Origin: Cytophagales bacterium | GTDB taxonomy: Bacteria > Bacteroidota > Bacteroidia > Cytophagales > Spirosomataceae | NCBI GenBank assembly: GCA_013298025.1 | Contig: JAAFJE010000017.1 | Span: 1 to 64,000 of the forward strand | DNA length: 64,000 nucleotides | Direction: 5' to 3' | In this document: positions 1 through 52,961 of the stretch, piece after piece | Position numbering within the stretch: position 1 is the stretch's first letter | Layout of the letters: every line of letters starts with the position of its first letter | Made by a program: the position numbers and the translations under genes | The notes under the pieces: generated by a model | The model's input: the letters and a program-made list of their open reading frames with translations, nothing else | The model's database searches: none | Told to the model about the DNA's origin: nothing

Positions 1-120
<120 letters not shown>

Positions 121-231
121 GTAAATTTTTTTTCAATGTCGATTATCTTCCCTTTTTTTCAAAAGTTGCGTAATCAACACACTTCTTGTCTCTTAGAATG
201 TCGTATTTGCTATTATTTCCTTATCAATACC

Positions 232-39965: not shown

Positions 39966-41228
39966 TTATACCAAAAATGTAAACAAATCTGGTTTTTCGT
40001 TGAGCAACTGAAATTCTATTTTGTGGGCTTCCATGCGTTCGATGAGGGGCTGAAAATCGCTTTTCGATTTCAGTTCTATGCCCAACAGCACTGGCCCCGA
40101 CTCACGGTTGGTTTTCTTTTGGTATTCAAAATGCGTAATGTCGTCGTCTTCGCCTAATACATTATTCAAGAAATTACGCAAAGCTCCTGCTCGTTGGGGA
40201 AAACGAATGATAAAATAGTGCTTCAAGCCTTCATACAATAACGAACGTTCTTTGATTTCTTCGGTACGGGTAATGTCGTTGTTGCCACCCGACACCAAGC
40301 ATACTACATTTTTACCTTTGATTTTATCTTTCAAAAAATCTAACGCCGCAATGGTCAATGCTCCTGCTGGCTCGGCTACAATGGCCGATTCGTTGTATAA
40401 TTCTAAAATGGTGGTACACACTTTACCTTCTGGCACAGAAATGATGTGGTCGAGGGTTTCTTTACAAATATGATAGGTGGTATCTCCTACCCGCTTCACG
40501 GCTGCCCCATCGACAAATTTATCCATCGTAGCCAGTTCTAGTACTTCGCCCGCTTCGATACTGGCTTTCATCGAGGCCGCTCCGGCAGGTTCAATGCCGA
40601 TGATATGTGTATGGGGCGACAACAACCTAAATACCGTGGACGTACCAGCCGCCAAGCCTCCGCCTCCAATCGCCAGTAATAAATAATCAATTTTCATGGC
40701 GGCATCTCTGAAAATTTCTAAACCCACCGTGCCTTGTCCAGCAATCACATCCATGTCATCGAACGGATGCACATAAGTAGCGTTTTGTTCTTGGCAAAAT
40801 TGCTTGGCTGCTTTAGAGGCATCGTCGTAAGTATCGCCGATAAGTTGGATATTGATATGCTCACGCCCAAACATTTTAACCGATTTGATTTTTTGGTTAG
40901 GCGTAGTGGTGGGCATAAAAACCGTGCCCATCACTTTCATTTTATGGCAAGCATACGCCATGCCTTGTGCATGGTTGCCAGCACTGGCACATACCACACC
41001 CTTGGCGAGAGCTTCGGGCGATAGTTGCGACATTTTGTTGTAAGCACCCCTAATTTTATAGGAACGTACAATTTGTAAATCTTCTCTTTTCAAGAAAATA
41101 TTGGCTTCGTATTTCTCCGAAAGGACCAAATTTTCCATCAAAGGCGTATGCGTAGCAATGCCACGCAAACGCTCGGCGGCATCGTAGATGCTTTCGAGCG
41201 AAGGAAATACAGCAGAATGAAGTTGCAT
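39966..41228 (-). CDS. ilvA: Threonine ammonia-lyase, biosynthetic (IlvA)
   Basis: PLP enzyme making 2-oxobutanoate, the entry to isoleucine. It is 420 aa. The Schiff-base Lys is in SYKIRGAYNKM near residue 58. SAGNHAQGMAYACHK, a PLP phosphate-binding Gly loop (AIGGGGLAAG near 190) and VVCLVSGGNNDITR are visible. A single ACT-like regulatory domain forms the C-terminus (LKHYFIIRFPQRAGALRNFLNNVLG, with GIELKSKSDFQPLIERM), as in the shorter one-domain class. It ends the ilvD-B-N-C-A operon. Confidence 0.95.
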   Translation of the reverse strand: MQLHSAVFPSLESIYDAAERLRGIATHTPLMENLVLSEKYEANIFLKREDLQIVRSYKIRGAYNKMSQLSPEALAKGVVCASAGNHAQGMAYACHKMKVMGTVFMPTTTPNQKIKSVKMFGREHINIQLIGDTYDDASKAAKQFCQEQNATYVHPFDDMDVIAGQGTVGLEIFRDAAMKIDYLLLAIGGGGLAAGTSTVFRLLSPHTHIIGIEPAGAASMKASIEAGEVLELATMDKFVDGAAVKRVGDTTYHICKETLDHIISVPEGKVCTTILELYNESAIVAEPAGALTIAALDFLKDKIKGKNVVCLVSGGNNDITRTEEIKERSLLYEGLKHYFIIRFPQRAGALRNFLNNVLGEDDDITHFEYQKKTNRESGPVLLGIELKSKSDFQPLIERMEAHKIEFQLLNEKPDLFTFLV

Positions 41229-41422: not shown

Positions 41423-42466
41423 TTAGTTTCTTTCAGGACGAAGGCTACGTACAGCCGCACCAGCTTGCCACATTTCAGAATTGCGAAGCTCTTCTAATTC
41501 AGCTTCCAACTTCACACGGTAGTCTGGTTGAGAGTTCAATGTGATAGAACGCTCGGCTTCTGCTTGTGTTTTCACAGAGTTGTACAATTGAGCGAATACA
41601 GGTTTTGTCGCTTCTTTGAAAGGTCTCCACCAGTCTAAAGCACCACGTTGAGCTGTAGTAGAACAGTTGGCGTACATCCAGTCCATACCGTTTTCAGCTA
41701 CTAAAGGCATCAACGATTGCGTCAATTCTTCTACCGTTTCGTTGAAAGCTTCAGAAGGAGAGTGACCGTTTTCACGCAATACTTCGTACTGAGCAGCAAA
41801 AATACCTTGGATAGCTCCCATCAATGTACCACGCTCGCCAGTTAAGTCAGAAGTTACTTCTTTGTAGAAATCTGTTTCAAACAAATAACCCGAACCTACA
41901 CCGATAGCCATAGCGATACATTTTTCACGAGCTTTGCCCGTAGCATCTTGGTAAACAGCGAAAGAAGAGTTTAAGCCTTTGCCTTCTACAAACAAACGAC
42001 GAAGTGAAGTACCCGAACCTTTAGGGGCAGCCAAGAATACGTCAACATCGGCAGGAGGCACGATGCCCGTTTTTTCTTTATAAGTGATACCGAATCCGTG
42101 AGAGAAATACAATGATTTACCAGCAGTCAAATATTTTTTCACAGTTGGCCACAATTCGATTTGAGCAGCATCTGAAAGCAAGTAGCAAATGATAGTGCCT
42201 TTTTCTAGTGCTTCTTCGATTTCAAACAATGTTTCGCCAGGAACCCAACCATCAGCTACGGCTTTGTCATAGGTTTTTCCTTTACGTTGACCTACAATTA
42301 CGTTCAAGCCGTTATCTTTCATGTTCAAAGCTTGACCAGGCCCTTGTACACCGTATCCGATTACAGCGATAGTTTCATTAGCCAATACTTCTCTTGCTTT
42401 TTCTAATGGGAACTCCTCACGAGTCACGATATCCTCTACCACTCCGCCAAAATTAATTTGTGCCAT
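41423..42466 (-). CDS. ilvC: Ketol-acid reductoisomerase (IlvC)
   Basis: Mg- and NAD(P)H-dependent second step of valine/isoleucine synthesis, 347 aa. The Rossmann motif IAVIGYGVQGPGQALNMKDNG is near residue 33, SHGFGI near 123, and the metal Asp/Glu are in LTGERGTLMGAIQG. The segments APKGSGTSLRRLF, ENGHSPSEAFNETVEELTQSLMPL and DWMYANCSTTAQRGALDWW look more like the fungal Ilv5 type than E. coli IlvC, as I recall for this phylum. Fourth gene of the operon, 193 bp after ilvN. Confidence 0.96.
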   Translation of the reverse strand: MAQINFGGVVEDIVTREEFPLEKAREVLANETIAVIGYGVQGPGQALNMKDNGLNVIVGQRKGKTYDKAVADGWVPGETLFEIEEALEKGTIICYLLSDAAQIELWPTVKKYLTAGKSLYFSHGFGITYKEKTGIVPPADVDVFLAAPKGSGTSLRRLFVEGKGLNSSFAVYQDATGKAREKCIAMAIGVGSGYLFETDFYKEVTSDLTGERGTLMGAIQGIFAAQYEVLRENGHSPSEAFNETVEELTQSLMPLVAENGMDWMYANCSTTAQRGALDWWRPFKEATKPVFAQLYNSVKTQAEAERSITLNSQPDYRVKLEAELEELRNSEMWQAGAAVRSLRPERN

Positions 42467-42659: not shown

Positions 42660-43190
42660 TTACACCACTTCCCAATCGCCTTCGGGCAGGTATTCGACCA
42701 AGCCTTTTTCGGTTTTCCCTACAGCCACACGGCCCGATTTGAGGTATTCGAGAATTTCCCAATTTTTGATATAGTGGTAAAATTCTGCTATTTCTTGCTC
42801 TGTGCCATTTTTCTCAATTACCACGTAATCGAGTCCCCAATGCACTACTTTGGCATTCCAATCGAGGTTGATTTCCTTGATATTGAGCGGTACGCCGCCC
42901 AAAGGCGTAGCAATTTTAAACAGAGCAATTTCGTTAAAAACGATTTCGTGGTCGAGGTAGCCAAATACAGCCAATACATCAACCACCTTACGAATTTGAC
43001 GTACTAATTTTTCGACAGCCTCACGAGAATCGTGGCGAATCACAATAGTAAATCTCGATACACCTTTTCTTTCTGTTTCGCAAACCGTTAGCGATTCGAT
43101 ATTCAAGCGTCTGCGTGTGAATATAATCGTGATGCGGTTTAATAAACCAATGGTATTGGAGGTAAATATCGATAATGTGTATGTTGTCAT
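42660..43190 (-). CDS. ilvN: Acetolactate synthase small subunit (IlvN/IlvH)
   Basis: Regulatory subunit that activates IlvB and confers valine feedback. It is 176 aa. The N-terminal ACT domain has YTLSIFTSNTIGLLNRITIIFTRR and LNIESLTVCETERKGVSRFTIV, the typical valine-binding region (residues 3-75). The C-terminal domain is shorter and less conserved. It lies 101 bp after ilvB. Confidence 0.94.
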   Translation of the reverse strand: MTTYTLSIFTSNTIGLLNRITIIFTRRRLNIESLTVCETERKGVSRFTIVIRHDSREAVEKLVRQIRKVVDVLAVFGYLDHEIVFNEIALFKIATPLGGVPLNIKEINLDWNAKVVHWGLDYVVIEKNGTEQEIAEFYHYIKNWEILEYLKSGRVAVGKTEKGLVEYLPEGDWEVV

Positions 43191-43291: not shown

Positions 43292-45037
43292 TTACTCCAA
43301 TATCACTTTGGTAACACAAGCACCAGCAGGCACCATCGGGAATACGTTTTCTTCTTTTTCGCAGATAATTTCCAATAAATAGGGTTTATCTGATTGTAAA
43401 AGGGTATCGAGCGATTCCGATAATTTGGCACGGTCAGACACCGTATGTCCTGCAATACCAAAGCCTTTGGCAATCGTAATGAAGTCGGGATTTTGCAATT
43501 CTACGAAAGAGTAGCGTCTATCAAAGAACAATTGTTGCCATTGGCGTACCATTCCCAAGAAGTTGTTGTTGAGAATAATAATTTTCACAGGCAAGCCACT
43601 TTGGGCAATTGTACCCAATTCTTGAATCGTCATTTGGAAACCTCCATCGCCAATAATCGCCACTACTTCACGGTCGGGAGCACCCATTTTAGCTCCAAAA
43701 GCGGCTGGAAGTGCAAAGCCCATTGTACCTGCACCGCCCGACGTTACGCTAGAAAACGGCTTTTTGAAACGATAGTAACGATTGGCAATCATTTGGTGCT
43801 GTCCAACGTCGGTTACGGTTACGGCTTCGCCCTTGGTTTTATCCGAAAGCATGGCTACAGCCTCGCCCATTTTGATTTGATCGCCTTCGTGGAATAAATC
43901 TTTCTTCGTAATCTTTTCGTATTCGATGGCATCGTATTTAGCAAATTCGGCACGCCATTCAGGATACGAATTGGTGTTAATCAAGGGTAAAAGAGCTTTT
44001 AAAGCTTCTTTGGCATCGCCTACCACTGGTGCATCGGCAAATACGTTTTTGTTGATTTCGGCAGGGTCTATTTCAATATGTACCACTTTGGCTTGTTTGG
44101 CATACGTACCCAAATCGCCAGTAATACGGTCGTCGAAACGCATTCCGATGGCAATTAATACATCGCATTCGTTGGTCAAAACGTTTGCTCCGTAATTGCC
44201 GTGCATACCGGGCCAGCCCACGTAAAGCGGATGGTCGGCATCTACCGCCGACATCCCCAAGAGCGTTGTAGCCACAGGAATACCAGCCTTTTCGATAAAT
44301 TGTTTCAATTCATCTTGAGCATTAGCAAGCAAAACGCCATGACCAGCCAAGATATAAGGTTTTTTGGCGGCATTAATCAATTTGGCTGCGGCTTCGATAT
44401 GCTCTTGTTTAGGCACAACCCTTGGACGATAGCTGATGACATCTACCTTTTTCTCGTATTTGAAAGGTTGGGTCATTTTATCGGTTTGGGCGGTGCGAGT
44501 AATATCAATCAACACAGGGCCAGGTCTGCCAGATTCGGCAATATGAAATGCCTTAGCGATAATTTCGGGGATTTCGTTGGCATCTACTACTTGGTAATTC
44601 CATTTAGTAATAGGCATCGAAATACCAATGATGTCGCATTCTTGAAAAGCGTCTGTTCCGAGTAAATTTCCTTTTACTTGTCCAACGATACACACCAACG
44701 GTGTCGAATCAAGCATGGCATCGGCGATAGGAGTCATCAGGTTGGTTGCCCCTGGGCCCGAAGTCACCATCGCTACACCCGCACGGTTGGTCATACGGGC
44801 ATATCCTTGTGCCGCATGACCAGCACCTTGCTCATGACGCACGAGGATGTGTTTGAGTTTATCTTGATAATCATATAGGGCATCATACGTGGGCATGATG
44901 GCGCCACCTGGATAGCCGAAGATAGTATCAACACCTTGCTCGACTAAAGATTGCATTATGGCTTGTGCACCCGTAAGAAACTGTTCGGGTTCTTTGTTTT
45001 TTGGTGCTGCGGTCATGGTTTGTGTCTGTGCTGCCAT
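43292..45037 (-). CDS. ilvB: Acetolactate synthase large subunit (IlvB)
   Basis: ThDP/FAD enzyme condensing pyruvate with pyruvate or 2-oxobutanoate. It is 581 aa. The catalytic Glu is in LVRHEQGAGHAAQGYARM near residue 68. VTSGPGATNLMTPIADA is visible, and the ThDP/Mg motif is GDGGFQMTIQELGTIAQSGLPVKIIILNN near residue 455. The C-terminal end CEKEENVFPMVPAGACVTKVILE is typical. Second gene of the operon, separated from ilvD by a 396-bp repeat-filled gap. Confidence 0.97.
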   Translation of the reverse strand: MAAQTQTMTAAPKNKEPEQFLTGAQAIMQSLVEQGVDTIFGYPGGAIMPTYDALYDYQDKLKHILVRHEQGAGHAAQGYARMTNRAGVAMVTSGPGATNLMTPIADAMLDSTPLVCIVGQVKGNLLGTDAFQECDIIGISMPITKWNYQVVDANEIPEIIAKAFHIAESGRPGPVLIDITRTAQTDKMTQPFKYEKKVDVISYRPRVVPKQEHIEAAAKLINAAKKPYILAGHGVLLANAQDELKQFIEKAGIPVATTLLGMSAVDADHPLYVGWPGMHGNYGANVLTNECDVLIAIGMRFDDRITGDLGTYAKQAKVVHIEIDPAEINKNVFADAPVVGDAKEALKALLPLINTNSYPEWRAEFAKYDAIEYEKITKKDLFHEGDQIKMGEAVAMLSDKTKGEAVTVTDVGQHQMIANRYYRFKKPFSSVTSGGAGTMGFALPAAFGAKMGAPDREVVAIIGDGGFQMTIQELGTIAQSGLPVKIIILNNNFLGMVRQWQQLFFDRRYSFVELQNPDFITIAKGFGIAGHTVSDRAKLSESLDTLLQSDKPYLLEIICEKEENVFPMVPAGACVTKVILE

Positions 45038-45433: not shown

Positions 45434-47110
45434 TTACAAATCTGTCACACAACCTTCACTTGCAGAAGCCACGTTTTTCACGTATTTACGCAAGACTCCT
45501 TGCTTAAATGGCGATTCGAGTGGTTGCCAATCTTTACGGCGTTCTGCCAATTCTTCGTCTGATACGTGTAAATGGATAACGTTGTTTACCGCATCAATCG
45601 TAATCAAGTCGCCATCTTTTACCAAAGCGATATTGCCCCCTACTTGTGCTTCGGGTGTTACGTGACCCACTACAAAGCCGTGCGTACCTCCCGAAAAACG
45701 ACCGTCGGTAATCATCGCTACTTTATTGCCCAATCCAGCACCCATGATAGCAGAGGTTGGTTTCAACATTTCTGGCATACCGGGGCCACCTTTAGGACCT
45801 TCGTTACGAATCACGACTACTTGTCCTTCTTTGATTTCGCCTCTTGATAAATATTCTATTACTTCTTCTTCACGCTCACATACTTTAGCAATTCCTTCAA
45901 AACGCTCTCCTTCTTTGCCTGTGATTTTTGCTACAGCCCCGCCCGTTGCCAAGTTTCCGTACAATACTTGTAAGTGACCTGTAGGCTTGATAGGGTTGGT
46001 AAGTGGCATGATGATTTTTTGTGATTCAAAATCTAAATCTGGCACATCCGCCAAGTTTTCTGCAACAGTTTTACCTGTTACAGTCATACAGTCGCCATGC
46101 AAATAGCCTTCTTTCAACAAATATTTCATCAAAGCAGGTACGCCACCGATTGAAAGCATATCTTCCATGTAGTATTTACCCGAAGGTTTCAAGTCGGCAA
46201 TCAACGGTGTGCGGTCAGAAATCGCTTGAATATCTTTTAAGGTAAAATCCACTTGTGCAGCACGAGCAATAGCCAAGTAGTGCAATACGGCATTGGTCGA
46301 GCCACCCATCGTCATTACCATCGTGAGGGCATTTTCAAACGCCTTGCGGGTCATGATGTCTCTTGGACAAATATTTTTCTCCAATAAGTTTTTCATGGCT
46401 GCACCAATGGCCAAACATTCAGCTTTTTTGCCTTCGTGTGTTGCAGGATACGACGAAGAGTTGGGGAGCGTCAAGCCCATAGCCTCCATCGACGAAGCCA
46501 TCGTATTGGCGGTGTACATTCCTCCGCAAGCACCAGCACCAGGAATGGCATTGCGAATGACACCTTCGTAATCTTCATCCGAGATATTGCCAGCAAATTT
46601 TTTACCCAAAGCTTCAAACGCCGAAACGATGTCGAGCTTTTGTCCTTTATATTCTCCTGTACGAATTGTACCACCATACACCAACATACCGGGGCGGTTT
46701 AGACGAGCCAAAGCCATCATAGCACCGGGCATATTTTTATCGCAACCAACCACCGCAATTACGCCATCGTACCACTGAGCACCCACTACATTTTCGATTG
46801 AGTCGGCGATGAGGTCACGAGAAGGCAACGAGTAAGACATCCCATTGTTGCCGTTGGTCATCCCGTCAGACACCCCGATTGTGTGAAAAATCAAGCCCAC
46901 CATTCCATTATCTTGAACTCCTTTCTTTACATGAACCGATAGACCATTGAGGTGCATATTGCAGGTATTGCCTTCGTAGCCAGTACTGGCAATCCCAATT
47001 TGAGCCTTTTGCATATCTTCTGACGAAAGACCAATGCCATAAAGCATGGCTTTAGCAGCAGGGTTGGTAATTTCTTGCGTGAGCGTTCTGGAGAATTTGT
47101 TTAGTTCCAT
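45434..47110 (-). CDS. ilvD: Dihydroxy-acid dehydratase (IlvD)
   Basis: Iron-sulfur enzyme, third step of valine/isoleucine synthesis. It is 558 aa from the ATG at 47110 ([13 protein letters not shown]); the frame from 47137 adds nine unlikely residues. Cluster Cys motifs are [17 protein letters not shown] near residue 113 and [20 protein letters not shown] near 190. The C-terminal [20 protein letters not shown] is also present. First gene of ilvD-B-N-C-A, behind a leader-peptide attenuator (47215-47412). Confidence 0.97.
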
Positions 47111-47214
47111 AATGAAATTGTTTCGTTTGCTGTCCAATAATCAATTTTTGGCAAGACTTTGGACTATTTTGGCATTAATTGACTTATTTTAAGTTAAAGC
47201 TTCTTTAGATGACA

Positions 47215-47247
47215 AAAGACCTTTCTCGTGGTATGAGAAAGGTCTTT
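47215..47247 (-). terminator. ilvD attenuator terminator
   Basis: Perfect 13-bp stem (47215-47227 with 47235-47247), core GACCTTTCTC/GAGAAAGGTC, 7-nt loop, followed by TTTTG on the minus strand. It lies between the promoter and ilvD in the direction of transcription. Confidence 0.85.
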
Positions 47248-47281
47248 CGGAAATATATACAACAAGAACCCGTCTCATACC
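47230..47281 (-). promoter_or_regulatory. ilvD antiterminator pairing
   Basis: On the RNA strand GGTATGAGA (47281-47273) can pair perfectly over 9 bp with TCTCATACC (47238-47230). The first segment contains the leader-peptide stop codon; the second covers the terminator's loop and the end of its 5' arm. The pairing therefore excludes the terminator. A ribosome finishing the leader would mask it; one stalled upstream would leave it free. Confidence 0.75.
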
Positions 47282-47337
47282 TGATAGCAGAGCAGAATGA
47301 CAACGAGGATGATATTTACGCTTGAAAGTTTTAACAT
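47275..47337 (-). CDS. ilv operon leader peptide
   Basis: A 20-codon frame starting MLKLSSVN, continuing IILVVILL and ending CYQV. Twelve of the 20 residues are Leu (5), Ile (3) or Val (4), including eight in a row. It lies between the ilvD promoter and the terminator, and its stop codon is part of the antiterminator. This is the classic layout of amino-acid attenuation for a branched-chain operon. It is too short for ordinary gene calling and has no visible ribosome-binding site, usual here. Confidence 0.88.
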   Translation of the reverse strand: MLKLSSVNIILVVILLCYQV

Positions 47338-47344
47338 TTGCAAC

Positions 47345-47360
47345 TAGCGAAATTTCGCTA
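47345..47360. promoter_or_regulatory. 16-bp palindrome in the ilvD 5' UTR (operator 1)
   Basis: Perfect palindrome TAGCGAAATTTCGCTA, repeated at 47587-47602. It falls about 17-32 nt after the predicted ilvD start site and just before the leader peptide, where a bound protein could block elongation. TAG...CTA ends with an AT core resemble Lrp/AsnC sites in outline only; the binding protein is unknown. Confidence 0.65.
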
Positions 47361-47380
47361 ATGTTTTATTTAGTCCTTCA

Positions 47381-47412
47381 CAAATATACAGGAGTATTTT
47401 TTTTAATTGCAA
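47381..47412 (-). promoter_or_regulatory. ilvD operon promoter
   Basis: The minus strand has TTG (47412-47410), 21 nt, then TATATTTG (47388-47381), an exact TAnnTTTG. The start is predicted near 47377, 40 nt before the leader peptide. Confidence 0.75.
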
Positions 47413-47586: not shown

Positions 47587-47602
47587 TAGCGAAATTTCGC
47601 TA
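47587..47602. promoter_or_regulatory. 16-bp palindrome (operator 2) and half site
   Basis: Second exact TAGCGAAATTTCGCTA, 242 bp from the first. The next bases are also shared (TTGTTTTAT here, ATGTTTTAT there). A half site TTTCGCTA followed by TCTTGTTTAAT lies at 47652-47659. The sites lie between the diverging ilvD and sigma-factor genes and could serve either. Confidence 0.65.
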
Positions 47603-47797: not shown

Positions 47798-48355
47798 ATG
47801 AAGCATTCAGAACTGAGTGATGAGCAATTGATAGGATTTCTTCAACAAGACGACAAACGGGCTTTTGAAGAAATTTACTACCGCTACTGGTACAAGCTTT
47901 TTGGCATTGCGTATCATGAAACTGGTACGAAAGAAGAAGCCGAAGAACTGGTACATGATTTATTTGAAAGTCTTTGGCAACGCCGACAACAACTAAACAT
48001 TCGTTTATTGAGTGCCTATTTGGTCGTATCTATCAAGCACCTAAGCGTCAATTATATCAAATCACAAATTACTAACCGCAAATTTCAAGAGTACCTTATT
48101 TTTAATGAAATCAGACAGAATCTTTCTACAGAAGAAAGTGTTCATTTCACCGATTTGTCGAAAGCTGTTGATGAAGCCTTAAAAAAATTACCTGAAAAAA
48201 CCTGTGAGGTATTCAGGATGAGTCGATTTGAAAACCAGTCGGTCAAAGCCATCGCCCAACGCCTCCAAATCAGCGAAAAAGCCGTGGAATACCACCTCAC
48301 CAAATCGCTCAAAGTATTAAGAGAAAATCTGAAAAACTATCATTCAGACAATTAA
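47798..48355 (+). CDS. ECF sigma factor (FecI-like)
   Basis: RNA polymerase sigma-70 factor of the Bacteroidota ECF group that works with FecR anti-sigma factors. It is 185 aa. Region 2 is visible in FEEIYYRYWYKLFGIAYHETGTKEEAEELVHDLFESLW, and region 4 with its HTH in LPEKTCEVFRMSRFENQSVKAIAQRLQISEKAVEYHLTKSLKVL. It lies 13 bp before the FecR gene, and the regulon very likely includes the SusC/SusD locus downstream. Confidence 0.95.
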   Translation: MKHSELSDEQLIGFLQQDDKRAFEEIYYRYWYKLFGIAYHETGTKEEAEELVHDLFESLWQRRQQLNIRLLSAYLVVSIKHLSVNYIKSQITNRKFQEYLIFNEIRQNLSTEESVHFTDLSKAVDEALKKLPEKTCEVFRMSRFENQSVKAIAQRLQISEKAVEYHLTKSLKVLRENLKNYHSDN

Positions 48356-48368
48356 AAATGAAGGAAAA

Positions 48369-49373
48369 ATGAATCAACACGACTTTGATAAGCTCTTAGA
48401 AAAATACCTTGCGGGTTTATGCACCGAAGAGGAGGAAATATTTATTCACCAATGGTCTGAAAGATTACTACAAAACAGTGATTTTCAGATGAATACTTTT
48501 GAAAAAAAACGATTCGAGCAAAAGCTTTGGCAACGGATTCAACGCACTTTATTCCCACGTCAACCGTATAAAATATATGCCTTATGGACTTCGCTGGCAG
48601 GCGTTGCTTGCTTGCTTGTAGTGTTGTTTACGTTTTTGTGGCAAAGTCCTAGCACAGGCATTTTGCCTACCAATGCCCAAGAAATAAGCAATGCCTCGGG
48701 CGAAATAGAAGTCCGCAATACCTCCGCCAAACCGCAGCAGATTAAGCTAGAAGACGGCAGCCTGATTGTACTAAAACCCCAAAGTAGCATCAGTTATCCA
48801 GCCCATTTCAACGATAAAAACCGTGCGGTGTATTTACAAGGAGAAGCCTTTTTTCAGGTAAAACGCAACCCAAGCAAGCCTTTTATCGTACACACCAAAG
48901 ACCTCGTAACAGAAGTATTAGGCACAAGTTTCAACATCAAATCGTATGAGCAATCGAAAGCTATAGAAGTGTCGGTTGTGACGGGACGGGTATCGGTTTA
49001 TGAAAATTCAATTAAAAATGAAAAGCGAAAAAATGGCGTAATTTTGAGTCCTAACCAAAAGATTCTTTTCGACAAAGAAACCAAAAAATTAGTCCCCAGT
49101 TTGGTAGAAAATCCCATCGTTATCAATACACCCGTTACAACCCTCGATTTTGTTTTTGAAGAGACGCCCCTAGCCTTGGTACTGAGCCGCTTGCAGAGTG
49201 CCTATCAAATAGAATTTGTTATCGAAAACCATCAGCTTGCCAAGTGTGCATTCACGGCCGACCTCAACGAGTTGCCTTTGCACAAACAACTCGATTTGAT
49301 TTGTAAAGCATTAGATGCCACCTACGAGCAACGAGGAACGGTCATTTTTATCAATGGTACGGGTTGTCAATAA
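48369..49373 (+). CDS. FecR-family anti-sigma factor
   Basis: Inner-membrane anti-sigma factor that receives a signal from the TonB-dependent receptor. It is 334 aa. A short cytoplasmic N-terminus (residues 1-70) precedes one membrane helix (IYALWTSLAGVACLLVVLFTF, about 73-93). The FecR domain runs from 105 to 210 (VRNTSAKPQQIKLEDGSLIVLKPQSSISYP, VTEVLGTSFNIKSYE). The C-terminal STN-like DUF4974 domain is FVFEETPLALVLSRLQSAYQIEF. It sits directly after the sigma gene. Confidence 0.95.
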   Translation: MNQHDFDKLLEKYLAGLCTEEEEIFIHQWSERLLQNSDFQMNTFEKKRFEQKLWQRIQRTLFPRQPYKIYALWTSLAGVACLLVVLFTFLWQSPSTGILPTNAQEISNASGEIEVRNTSAKPQQIKLEDGSLIVLKPQSSISYPAHFNDKNRAVYLQGEAFFQVKRNPSKPFIVHTKDLVTEVLGTSFNIKSYEQSKAIEVSVVTGRVSVYENSIKNEKRKNGVILSPNQKILFDKETKKLVPSLVENPIVINTPVTTLDFVFEETPLALVLSRLQSAYQIEFVIENHQLAKCAFTADLNELPLHKQLDLICKALDATYEQRGTVIFINGTGCQ

Positions 49374-49490
49374 GGGTCACGTGCCATAAAACCATTGCAG
49401 CAACAAACCCAATTCGTAAAATTCATATTATAACTCAAACTTACTATTTAACCCTCATGAAAACATAAGTACTATTCTCTCACAAAAAAA

Positions 49491-49562
49491 GCCGATAATG
49501 TTGCGAGCATTACCGGCCAGAGCAACCCACCAAACGCCAATTTGGTGGCATCGAAGCGATGC
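49491..49562 (+). promoter_or_regulatory. Three-hairpin leader before susC
   Basis: Three adjacent hairpins precede the SusC start: GCCGATAATG/CATTACCGGC (49491-49500 with 49508-49517, one mismatch), CCACCAAA/TTTGGTGG (49527-49534 with 49541-49548) and GCATCG/CGATGC (49548-49553 with 49557-49562). They lie 49-120 nt upstream of the ATG. Transcription past this point would give a highly folded 5' UTR. Confidence 0.65.
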
Positions 49563-49610
49563 TTAGGATGCTGTTTTTCTCCATGTTACAGTCAAAAAAC
49601 ATTTAAAAGT

Positions 49611-52600
49611 ATGAAAAAAAAACAATCATTAAAAAAGATTCTCTCCAAAGCGATGCGAATTACTCTCACGCAATTATTCCTTTCGGTTATCTGTTGCGGC
49701 GTTTCGCTTGCCAACAGTGCTTTTTCGCAAGAGCTACTCAATAAGAGTATCACCCTGCGAACAGGAACCAGTACTGTGAAGCAAGTGTTGGTTCAGATTG
49801 AGAAGAAAGCCGACGTAAAATTTGTTTATAGCTCAAACGCCATCCAAGCCGAGCAAACGGTATCGCTTGAGTTTAAAAACGATAAACTTTCTAAAGTATT
49901 AGAAGAATTACTGAATCCCCTCAATATTTCTTACGAAGTAATAGAAAACCGTATTTTACTTCGTAAAAAAAATGGTGTTGAAAAAGACAACACCCCTGCG
50001 GTTGTCCCAAACGACATCATCGCCGAGCAAAGCGTATCGGGTATCGTCACAGACGAAAAAGGACAACCCTTACCGGGCGTATCGGTATTGGTAAAAAACA
50101 CCAATAGAGGTACAACTACCGACGGCAAAGGACAATACAAAATCAATGTGCCAGAAGCCAACGCAACTTTAGTGTTTTCGTTTGTAGGCTACAAAAAGCA
50201 AGAAGTATCGGTCAGCAACCGCTCTACTGTCAATGTATCGCTACAAGTAGAAAACCAAAACCTCGAAGAAGTAGTCGTGGTAGGTTATGGTACACAATCA
50301 CGTAAAAACCTCACCAGTGCCATTACGACCATCAAGCCCGAAGACCTCAACAAAGGAGCTATCAGCGACGTAGGGCAATTGTTGCAAGGAAAAGTACCCG
50401 GCTTGAATATCACCAGAAGTGGCGACCCCAACCGCTCGGCTGCCATCATTTTGCGTGGTGCTTCGTCGTTGCGTGACGGTGCACAATCGCCTTTGTTTGT
50501 GATTGATGGCGTACCCGGTGCCGATATTTCATTGATTGCCCCTGACGATATTGCTACCATGGACATCCTGAAAGATGCGGCTGCAACGGCAATCTATGGA
50601 AACCGTGCCGCCAATGGGGTAATTATGGTGACAACCAAGCGTGCCAACAAAGGACAAATGCAGGTAGCCTATAGCTCGTACATGGCCATCGACAAAGTAT
50701 CTAATCAATACGAAATGATGGATGCCAATCAGTTGAAATCGTTTTTGGCGGCCAACGGCCAGTCGCTTACTCCAGAAGACGACTTAGGAGCAAATACCAA
50801 CTGGCAAGATGCCGTACAACGCAGCACGGCCATCAGCCAAAACCACAATATTTCGTTTGGTGGTGGCAACGAAAATACCGTTTATAACGCCAGCCTCAAC
50901 TATTTCGACCAAGAGGGTATCATCAAATCGAGTGCCTTAAATCGTATTGTGGCACGTTTATCTATTGAACAAAAAGCTTTTAACGACAAAGTAAAATTAG
51001 GTTTATCGGTAACAAACTCTATCACAGATTCTAAATTAGTACCTTATCGTAATACCGTATTGGCTCAAATGCTTACGTATTTACCAACTTCACCCATACG
51101 TAGAGATAACGGTTCGTTTTACGACAACTTCAACAAGTCGAGCTATTACAACCCTGTATCGCTCATCGAAAACGCACAAGAACGGTTGAAATACAAAAGT
51201 TTGTTAGGTACATTCTTTACACAAATAAAGCTTCCTTTCGGCTTGACTTACGATTTGAAACTTTCGTACCAAAACTTCCAAACCAACTACGGGGCTTATT
51301 ACAACAGCTATTATACCCAATACTACAACAACGTGCGTAGCACACCAGAACCTCCGGGCAACCCTACGTTCATTACGTTGGTAGGGGCTAATGGCTTGGC
51401 TACACGCAATGCTTACCAAAACTCACAAAGTTTGTTGGAAACCTATCTTACTTGGGATAAGCAGTTTGGCGACCATTCTATCAACGCCGTTGTGGGTTAC
51501 TCTTGGCAAGAGAGCATCAATGGTGATGGCTTCCAAGCTACCAGTACCAACTTCCCGGTAGATGCCGTTGGGTACAACAACCTTAGCCTTGGCAACCCTT
51601 ATGCGGTGGCTTCTTTTAGGGTAAATTATGGTGGCGACAACTACCAACAGGTTCGCTTAATTTCGGATTTCGGTCGTTTGAACTATAACTACAAAAACAA
51701 GTATTTGGTACAAGCTTCTGTGCGTAGAGATGGCTCTTCGGTATTTGGTGTAAACAAACGCTGGGGATATTTCCCTGCGGTAGGGGTTGCTTGGCGTATC
51801 GACCAAGAACCATTTATGGAAAAACAAAAAGTATTTACCGAACTCAAACTCCGTGCCAGTTATGGTGTAACTGGTAACTCGCTAGGCTTTAGTCCTTATA
51901 CCACTAAATTGATTTATGGTAATATCGGTACGTTCTATTACAACGGAACACAGCAAACAGCTATTGGTGCTTTGCAAAACGAAAACCCTGATTTAGGTTG
52001 GGAAAAAACAGCTACCTCAAACATCGGGGTTGACTTTGCCATCTTGAAAGGAAAATTGAGCGGTACGCTAGAAGTATATGACAAAACTACTTCTGATTTG
52101 ATTTGGACTTACCCTGTAAGTACCGTATTGTACCCCAATGGTTCGTTAACAGCCAACGTAGGTAAAATGAGCAATAAAGGGATAGAATTTACCTTGAATG
52201 CAAGCCCTGTGCAAACAAAACACTTCTCTTGGAACACAACCCTTAATTTGGCCCATAACCAAAACAAAATTGTAAGTCTTTCTAACGCAACACTCAAAAC
52301 CGACTCTATCAAAATCGTACAACCCGATGGTGCTGGTCAAACAGGTGAAACCGTTATGTTGATTGCGGCGGGTTTACCTATCGGACAATTCTTTACCTAT
52401 GAATACGCAGGGAAAGATGCCAGTGGGGTATCGCAGTACTACAATGCCAAAGGTGAGCTTACAACGAAGCCTTTAAGCGTAAAAGATTACAAGGCTTTGG
52501 GCAATGCACAACCTACTGTATTGTTGGGTTGGTCGAACAGTTTTACATACAAAAATTTAGACCTAAACATTTTTATGCGTGCAGTATTGGGCAACAAAAT

Positions 52601-52961
52601 CATGAATATTACCCGTGCCGATTTAATCAGACCTAGTACAGCCCGCTTTACCAATATTCCTGTGGAAGTAGCCAGCGAATCGGCCAACGACTACAACTCG
52701 TACCGTTATTCATCTCGTTTTATAGAAGATGGTAGCTACCTACGTTTAGACAACGCCACGTTGGGATATTCTTTCAAGAATATCGCTAAAAACATCAAAC
52801 GTGTGAGGGTTTATGCCTCTGTCAACAACCTGTTTGTGATTACTGGCTATAAAGGTATAGACCCCGAAATCAACCAAGGCGGTACAGCCCCCGGTGTAGA
52901 TGCCAACAACTTCTACCCCAAAACTCGTACTTTCTTGTTTGGGGTGTCGGCTTCTTTCTAA
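49611..52961 (+). CDS. SusC/RagA TonB-dependent receptor with signalling domain
   Basis: Outer-membrane importer working with the SusD lipoprotein. It is 1116 aa from the ATG at 49611 (MKKKQSLKK); the frame from 49542 would add residues encoded by the hairpin leader and is rejected. Domains: signal peptide to about 43, STN signalling domain (ITLRTGTSTVKQVLVQIEKKADVKFVYSSN, about 50-120), CarboxypepD-like repeat (VSGIVTDEKGQPLPGVSVLVKN), plug (LEEVVVVGYGTQSRKNLTSAI) and a large barrel. The STN domain implies signalling to the FecR/sigma pair upstream. Confidence 0.95.
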   Translation: MKKKQSLKKILSKAMRITLTQLFLSVICCGVSLANSAFSQELLNKSITLRTGTSTVKQVLVQIEKKADVKFVYSSNAIQAEQTVSLEFKNDKLSKVLEELLNPLNISYEVIENRILLRKKNGVEKDNTPAVVPNDIIAEQSVSGIVTDEKGQPLPGVSVLVKNTNRGTTTDGKGQYKINVPEANATLVFSFVGYKKQEVSVSNRSTVNVSLQVENQNLEEVVVVGYGTQSRKNLTSAITTIKPEDLNKGAISDVGQLLQGKVPGLNITRSGDPNRSAAIILRGASSLRDGAQSPLFVIDGVPGADISLIAPDDIATMDILKDAAATAIYGNRAANGVIMVTTKRANKGQMQVAYSSYMAIDKVSNQYEMMDANQLKSFLAANGQSLTPEDDLGANTNWQDAVQRSTAISQNHNISFGGGNENTVYNASLNYFDQEGIIKSSALNRIVARLSIEQKAFNDKVKLGLSVTNSITDSKLVPYRNTVLAQMLTYLPTSPIRRDNGSFYDNFNKSSYYNPVSLIENAQERLKYKSLLGTFFTQIKLPFGLTYDLKLSYQNFQTNYGAYYNSYYTQYYNNVRSTPEPPGNPTFITLVGANGLATRNAYQNSQSLLETYLTWDKQFGDHSINAVVGYSWQESINGDGFQATSTNFPVDAVGYNNLSLGNPYAVASFRVNYGGDNYQQVRLISDFGRLNYNYKNKYLVQASVRRDGSSVFGVNKRWGYFPAVGVAWRIDQEPFMEKQKVFTELKLRASYGVTGNSLGFSPYTTKLIYGNIGTFYYNGTQQTAIGALQNENPDLGWEKTATSNIGVDFAILKGKLSGTLEVYDKTTSDLIWTYPVSTVLYPNGSLTANVGKMSNKGIEFTLNASPVQTKHFSWNTTLNLAHNQNKIVSLSNATLKTDSIKIVQPDGAGQTGETVMLIAAGLPIGQFFTYEYAGKDASGVSQYYNAKGELTTKPLSVKDYKALGNAQPTVLLGWSNSFTYKNLDLNIFMRAVLGNKIMNITRADLIRPSTARFTNIPVEVASESANDYNSYRYSSRFIEDGSYLRLDNATLGYSFKNIAKNIKRVRVYASVNNLFVITGYKGIDPEINQGGTAPGVDANNFYPKTRTFLFGVSASF

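Follow-up and report, generated by a model that had tools for sequence, protein, structure and literature searches.

The ilvDBNCA operon of this Cytophagales bacterium is preceded, with a probability that we put at roughly 0.85, by a leader-peptide transcription attenuator, which stands behind a promoter also carrying an operator. The window, i.e. the whole stretch of 64,000 nucleotides that was analysed, had been credited with such an attenuator in a first-pass annotation made from the letters alone, and the comparison of related genomes supports this reading at the sequence level, by the conservation of the leader and by two-sided changes in both of the alternative RNA helices. The frame, its predicted pairings, their conservation and covariation and the distribution of the attenuator could be observed directly.

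All five genes are on the minus strand: ilvD (45434-47110, start ATG taken at 47110), ilvB for the acetolactate synthase large subunit (43292-45037), ilvN for the small subunit (42660-43190), ilvC for ketol-acid reductoisomerase (41423-42466) and ilvA for threonine ammonia-lyase (39966-41228), thus the operon order ilvD-B-N-C-A proposed earlier was correct. The consensus promoter was likewise found on the minus strand as it had been described, with a -33 TTG element at 47412-47410, 21 nt of spacing and the -7 element TATATTTG at 47388-47381; by its consensus it is of the Bacteroidota type. TTG is present in all nine aligned genomes, and the sequence CTGTATATTTGT (47391-47380), which spans the -7 element, is identical across them. 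Upstream of the -33 element an AT-rich block, AGTATTTATTACTAAAATTTTATTTGG (about 47450-47420, minus strand), is well conserved in most of the nine genomes and is a possible further protein site. Positions 1-122 (minus strand), at the window edge, belong to a 16S rRNA gene, of which they cover the 5' portion.

The leader frame (47337-47275, minus strand) encodes MLKLSSVNIILVVILLCYQV followed by a stop codon, and 12 of its 20 codons specify branched-chain residues (5 Leu, 4 Val, 3 Ile), in agreement with the first description; it is read from the sequence and conserved, and in the list of open reading frames it can be read also from a TTG two codons upstream. The terminator could be confirmed too: AAAGACCTTTCTC (47247-47235) pairs with GAGAAAGGTCTTT (47227-47215) over 13 bp ahead of a T-run, and the predicted hairpin has -19.6 kcal/mol. 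The perfect 9-bp alternative pairing of GGTATGAGA (47281-47273) with TCTCATACC (47238-47230), which includes the TGA stop of the leader, exists as claimed, but the further claim that it breaks the terminator does not hold for these 9 bp on their own, which remove only the top 4 nucleotides of the stem and the loop and spare the lower 9 bp. Folding of segments 2 to 3 predicted an antiterminator of 16 bp (47281-47264 with 47246-47230, -18.6 kcal/mol) that had been missed at first; it comes in three blocks of 9, 4 and 3 bp, where GGGU pairs with ACCU and CUU with AAG beyond the first nine, and it occupies nearly all of the terminator 5' arm. Since the helix extends past 9 bp to 16 bp, antiterminator and terminator are mutually exclusive, and their predicted energies (-18.6 versus -19.6 kcal/mol) are balanced. 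Segment 2, the 5' strand of the antiterminator with the leader stop codon in it, lies at 47264-47281, segment 3, its 3' strand, whose first 13 nt are the terminator 5' arm, at 47230-47247, and segment 4, the terminator 3' arm with the start of the U-run, at 47214-47227, all on the minus strand. The region thus has a short frame rich in the codons of the pathway, an intrinsic terminator between the leader stop and ilvD, and an exclusive antiterminator with the stop codon inside.

According to the mechanism that we propose, transcription would start about 15 nt ahead of the proximal operator, and a ribosome would load on the leader with no help from a Shine-Dalgarno sequence. In a shortage of charged Ile-, Val- or Leu-tRNA this ribosome would stall in the IILVVILL run and leave segment 2 free, which would pair with segment 3 over 16 bp, block the terminator and let RNA polymerase enter ilvD. 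With the tRNAs charged the ribosome would get to the stop codon inside segment 2 and mask this segment, as the size of the ribosome footprint implies, and segments 3 and 4 would form the terminator. We infer the dependence on translation, the amino-acid signal and the termination in vivo. A transcript without a loaded ribosome would be read through by default, since no protector hairpin is supported: the predicted fold of the window's own leader RNA does show a 1:2 pairing, nevertheless only 1 of the 24 family leaders beat 95% of the codon-order shuffles in a search for an enteric-style 1:2 hairpin. As the first-pass annotation had noted, the leader has no Shine-Dalgarno motif, and GGAG, GAGG or AGGA was absent from positions -18 to -4 in all of the 24 family leaders checked. 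Ribosomes of Bacteroidia have been reported, in the part of the source available, as unable to recognise Shine-Dalgarno sequences (PMC9976891).

The conservation of the leader frame, its Ile/Leu/Val run and both stems in relatives, which had been suggested as a check of the first reading, was investigated upstream of ilvD. A search for IlvD gave a match in 84 of 99 relatives, and from the named genomes 80 of 594 loci were retained; a detector was then applied that requires a minimum of 6 Ile/Leu/Val in 9 codons of a short frame and a terminator within 5-75 nt after it. It matched 56 of 163 upstream regions (31/83 in the relatives' set, 25/80 in the named-genome set), the locus L051 with its 22 nt of upstream sequence being excluded. 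With L133, which contains N, also set aside, the 56 matches in 162 real regions stood against 5/162 in antisense and 41/1620 in dinucleotide shuffles, and the strong cases, in which terminator and antiterminator both had -12 kcal/mol or lower, numbered 37/162, 0/162 and 3/1620 respectively. Three pairs of upstream regions are identical between the two sets, none of them a detector match. By family we mean the GTDB family of the source genome, which includes ilvD upstream regions identical to those of Lacihabitans, Spirosoma and Fibrella records (in the NCBI taxonomy Lacihabitans belongs to Leadbetterellaceae and Fibrella to Spirosomataceae, two families of Cytophagales). Of the 58 loci of this family 28 have the leader attenuator ahead of ilvD, 24 by the detector and 4 (L021, L038, L053, L060) added by eye, the truncated L051 being left out of the count. 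Each of 24 family leaders examined has 7-13 Ile/Leu/Val residues, and this run is conserved while the other residues vary.

Matches among the named genomes included those from Runella, Flavobacterium, Lutibacter, Meridianimaribacter, Aurantibacter, Elizabethkingia, Sediminibacterium, Segetibacter, Saprospiraceae and an Ignavibacteriae MAG, and the arrangement was also found in Chitinophagaceae. Four of the 56 matches (L037, L071, L125, L162) were removed as spurious by eye, although at L125 a Flavobacterium-type leader overlooked by the detector is visible. In the remaining 52 the segment 2:3 duplex was better than in shuffles (at most 10 of 200 as good) in 42 cases and not clearly above them in ten, namely 5 of 6 Flavobacterium loci, L154, L158, L160, L177 and the family locus L084; when nine of the ten were retested with a longer segment 2 stretch, only L158 passed. 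Given these ten failures, we are less sure of the antiterminator than of the leader beyond the family and a few other lineages. Two loci of another family of the order (L024 in G098 and L026 in G083) encode an IlvD 79-80% identical to that of the window and have the same type of leader attenuator, and the operator described below was not found there; their ilv operon was possibly transferred horizontally.

Covariation was assessed in an alignment of 18 loci, 16 of the family together with L024 and L026, after L004 had been excluded from 19 sequences. Two-sided changes occurred in 7 of 12 antiterminator pairs and 5 of 13 terminator pairs, as high a number being reached for the latter by 1/500 shuffles. 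In the antiterminator 85.6% of the cells were paired, compared with 79.0% in shuffles and at most 66.1% in slid controls, and none of 500 shuffles was as high on all five measures; in the terminator 95.7% were paired (0/500 shuffles as high), and its further pair types were matched by 7/500. The covariation score of either helix exceeds all 500 shuffles and all slid versions, where it should be kept in mind that kinship alone can beat shuffles without any structure and that the stretches were picked with the structure in mind. Since both helices share segment 3, segments 2 and 4 have changed alike.

Between promoter and leader, within the stretch covered by the first-pass annotation but overlooked there, lies the palindrome AGCGAAWWTTCGCT. 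The proximal operator, AGCGAAATTTCGCT, occupies 47346-47359, the -7 element beginning 29 nt before it, and a distal copy at 47588-47601 is 242 bp away. With at most one mismatch the operator is found upstream of ilvD in 50 of the 58 family loci, with or without a leader, and the reversed consensus and up to 50 permuted palindromes gave none in these 58; exact sites numbered 60 in 59 genomes, compared with 3 for the reversed pattern. Leader and operator occur together in 25 family loci, the leader only in three (L021-L023), the operator only in 25 and neither in five (L013, L014, L016, L018, L052). The sole detector match in an operator-only locus, at L037, lies upstream of the operator and is the one rejected as spurious. 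In loci having both, the nearest operator is at least 162 nt from the ilvD match. In 12 family loci (L001-L009, L012, L017, L020) the operator is preceded at 28-29 nt by a strict -7 pattern, which is absent at that spacing from the other 38, consequently a fixed distance between promoter and operator can be stated only for the 12. In the loci from other families of the order (L024, L026, L061-L083) the search at ilvD gave no operator.

The palindrome might instead act as an RNA hairpin just before the leader start codon, that is, as a translational or stability element and not as a DNA operator. It would indeed be transcribed, it folds into a hairpin of 8 bp in the predicted leader RNA, and in the 25 loci without a leader it is 40-70 nt ahead of the ilvD match start, near a possible start codon in the examples inspected. 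What makes this unlikely is that the sequence of the palindrome is conserved in the 50 loci and not merely its pairing, and that exact copies are found far upstream of the ilv promoter and also upstream of a RamB-like gene in 13 genomes.

Operator-only loci, 25 in number, mean that the attenuator is dispensable, and they would also suit the idea that leader and terminator operate without amino-acid control, the termination being constitutive or vestigial and the regulation left to the operator. There is a precedent in actinobacteria: the ilvB leaders described in the available part of PMC1262725 share with the window runs of Ile/Val/Leu codons in short frames at a terminator, replacing codons in the leader of S. 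coelicolor made no difference, and the authors call the mode of regulation unclear; these short frames differ from ours in overlapping the terminator hairpins. However, in the ilvD leaders the Ile/Leu/Val run is maintained amid changing residues, and segment 2, for which a constitutive terminator would have no use, covaries with segment 3. Leaders of like anatomy precede trpE as well. In the contig of the window, outside the window itself, trpE has the leader MKQTIKNTAWWWQLTNLG and a terminator (L188, G000:C9, upstream of 148641, minus strand). The gene was sought in 59 genomes, 56 of which had a match, and among the 30 loci analysed 26 combine a terminator with a preceding frame that holds a minimum of two Trp codons (WW or WWW), compared with 3/30 in antisense and 0/150 in shuffles; this frequency of Trp leaders before trpE shows attenuation to be common in the family. 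Constitutive or vestigial termination is, in our opinion, quite improbable.

A second attenuator in the window is probable at leuA (14830-13691), which is of the 2-isopropylmalate synthase type and is preceded by the leader MENNRTKKKNTLSQLLQTV (15021 to about 14900, minus strand) and a terminator of -20 kcal/mol. This leader is weaker in Leu, and clearer Leu runs such as LLIIQLLALV appear in some relatives (30 loci viewed, without controls). Upstream of hisG and two aspartokinase genes no convincing leader was seen by eye. That segments 2, 3 and 4 form a riboswitch or a tRNA-sensing element beside which the short frame is incidental is very improbable: structured RNA is present in the 5' UTR of this biosynthetic operon, but no Rfam family, T-box included, matched the leader region at the gathering score (the three matches at a relaxed threshold, E 0.78-3.4, were to microRNA and snoRNA families), little is conserved beyond the two alternative helices, and the composition of the frame tracks the pathway, I/L/V for ilv and W for trp.

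Besides the leader-peptide attenuator, the ilv operon probably has another input that precedes it, a RamB-like regulator. We rather favour the view that this regulator, a protein with HTH_3 and M78 domains, acts on AGCGAAWWTTCGCT just downstream of the transcription start. The window's genome has five exact sites: two are at ilv, a third lies between the RamB-like regulator gene and malate synthase/isocitrate lyase (L102 at about 4001, G000:C51), where autoregulation and glyoxylate control are likely, a fourth precedes a glyceraldehyde-3-phosphate dehydrogenase gene, and the fifth is flanked by genes for an SCP2-domain protein and a sigma factor. The RamB-like gene adjoins malate synthase/isocitrate lyase in five genomes (G000, G001, G003, G008, G029), and the stretches examined in G021 and G036 did not show this neighbour. 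Of the 31 genomes having an exact site, 13 have one 43-155 bp upstream of a RamB-like match, namely G000-G004, G008, G021, G029 and G036 of the family and G066, G068, G071 and G076 of four other families; the other 18 have none just upstream of a RamB-like gene, and in G079 an exact site is present and no RamB-like gene was found at E 1e-30. At the same threshold every one of the 50 family genomes that carry the operator at ilvD has the gene, as do 3 of the 8 that lack it (Fisher 1.2e-5, the true weight being smaller as the genomes are related), the matches in G012, G013 and G017 being partial. Sites in G010 were flanked also by an ATP-type PEP carboxykinase gene, an acyl-CoA dehydrogenase gene and leuA, and in G035 by a leuA-like gene, while the site stretches of G030 contain pheS and the genes of a peptide transporter and of glutamate synthase; several sites in G010 and G030 are beside genes of unclear connection.

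The regulator is only distantly RamB-like, as it scored 39.8 bits against the NCBIfam RamB equivalog cut-off of 700. Pfam found only HTH-type domains and Peptidase_M78 in it, and a sequence search of solved structures gave matches to the HTH part only. For RamB of Paracoccus denitrificans, a member of the ScfR family, the available text of PMC10370305 describes a regulator gene beside malate synthase in reverse orientation, as here; its sites are two boxes 18 bp apart, unlike our 14-bp palindrome, which stands also before ilvD.

Two operator copies are 240-242 bp apart in nine genomes, although the intervening stretch is only 58-96% identical pairwise and the distance from the proximal operator to ilvD varies by 96 bp. 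This constant spacing of about 23 helical turns, such as a DNA loop would have, suggests looping, and in the clade of the window the regulator perhaps uses the second site 240-242 bp upstream in this way; the binding of the RamB-like protein, the looping and the sign of the control are presumed from these patterns. The distal operator has ilv on one side and a divergent ECF sigma/FecR/SusC-like gene set (47798-52961) on the other, and might act on that set too. We give about even chances to the full picture of two signals in series, in which the RamB-like regulator, probably sensing acyl-CoA, would act on initiation via the paired palindromes, a Shine-Dalgarno-free attenuator would then sense the branched-chain amino acids, and gain or loss of the attenuator between operator and gene would have left two alternative 5' UTR designs in one family.

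In the enteric ilvGMEDA and ilvBN attenuators a short frame of Ile, Val and Leu codons is followed by an alternative antiterminator and terminator and by an ilv gene. The window shares with them the I/L/V-rich short frame, the competition of antiterminator and terminator and the downstream ilv gene; it differs in having no supported 1:2 hairpin and no Shine-Dalgarno-like motif, in the leader stop inside the antiterminator strand, in the Bacteroidota promoter, in the gene order ilvDBNCA and in the operator between promoter and leader. Regulation by leader-peptide attenuation is known as such and was already suggested in the same phylum for Flavobacterium psychrophilum, where strong clues for it upstream of amino-acid biosynthesis operons are described in a main text that does not contain 'ilv' and shows no alignment, as far as its available part goes (PMC9723704); for short frames of Bacteroides thetaiotaomicron it was suggested less directly in the corresponding part of PMC7366714. 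Among the open-licence PMC matches listed, no aligned, covarying ilv leader attenuator was found for Bacteroidota, and, judging by the matches listed in a single search on RamB, an operator of the RamB-like kind on ilv may be new.

The conserved and covarying ilv leader, together with its trp and apparently leuA counterparts, is comparative evidence for transcription-translation coupling in Bacteroidota. Attenuation by a leader peptide demands a ribosome that keeps up with RNA polymerase, and the ilv leader offers a reporter for the timing of ribosome loading. The operator adds a candidate regulator, which would link the synthesis of branched-chain amino acids to acetyl-CoA or glyoxylate metabolism.
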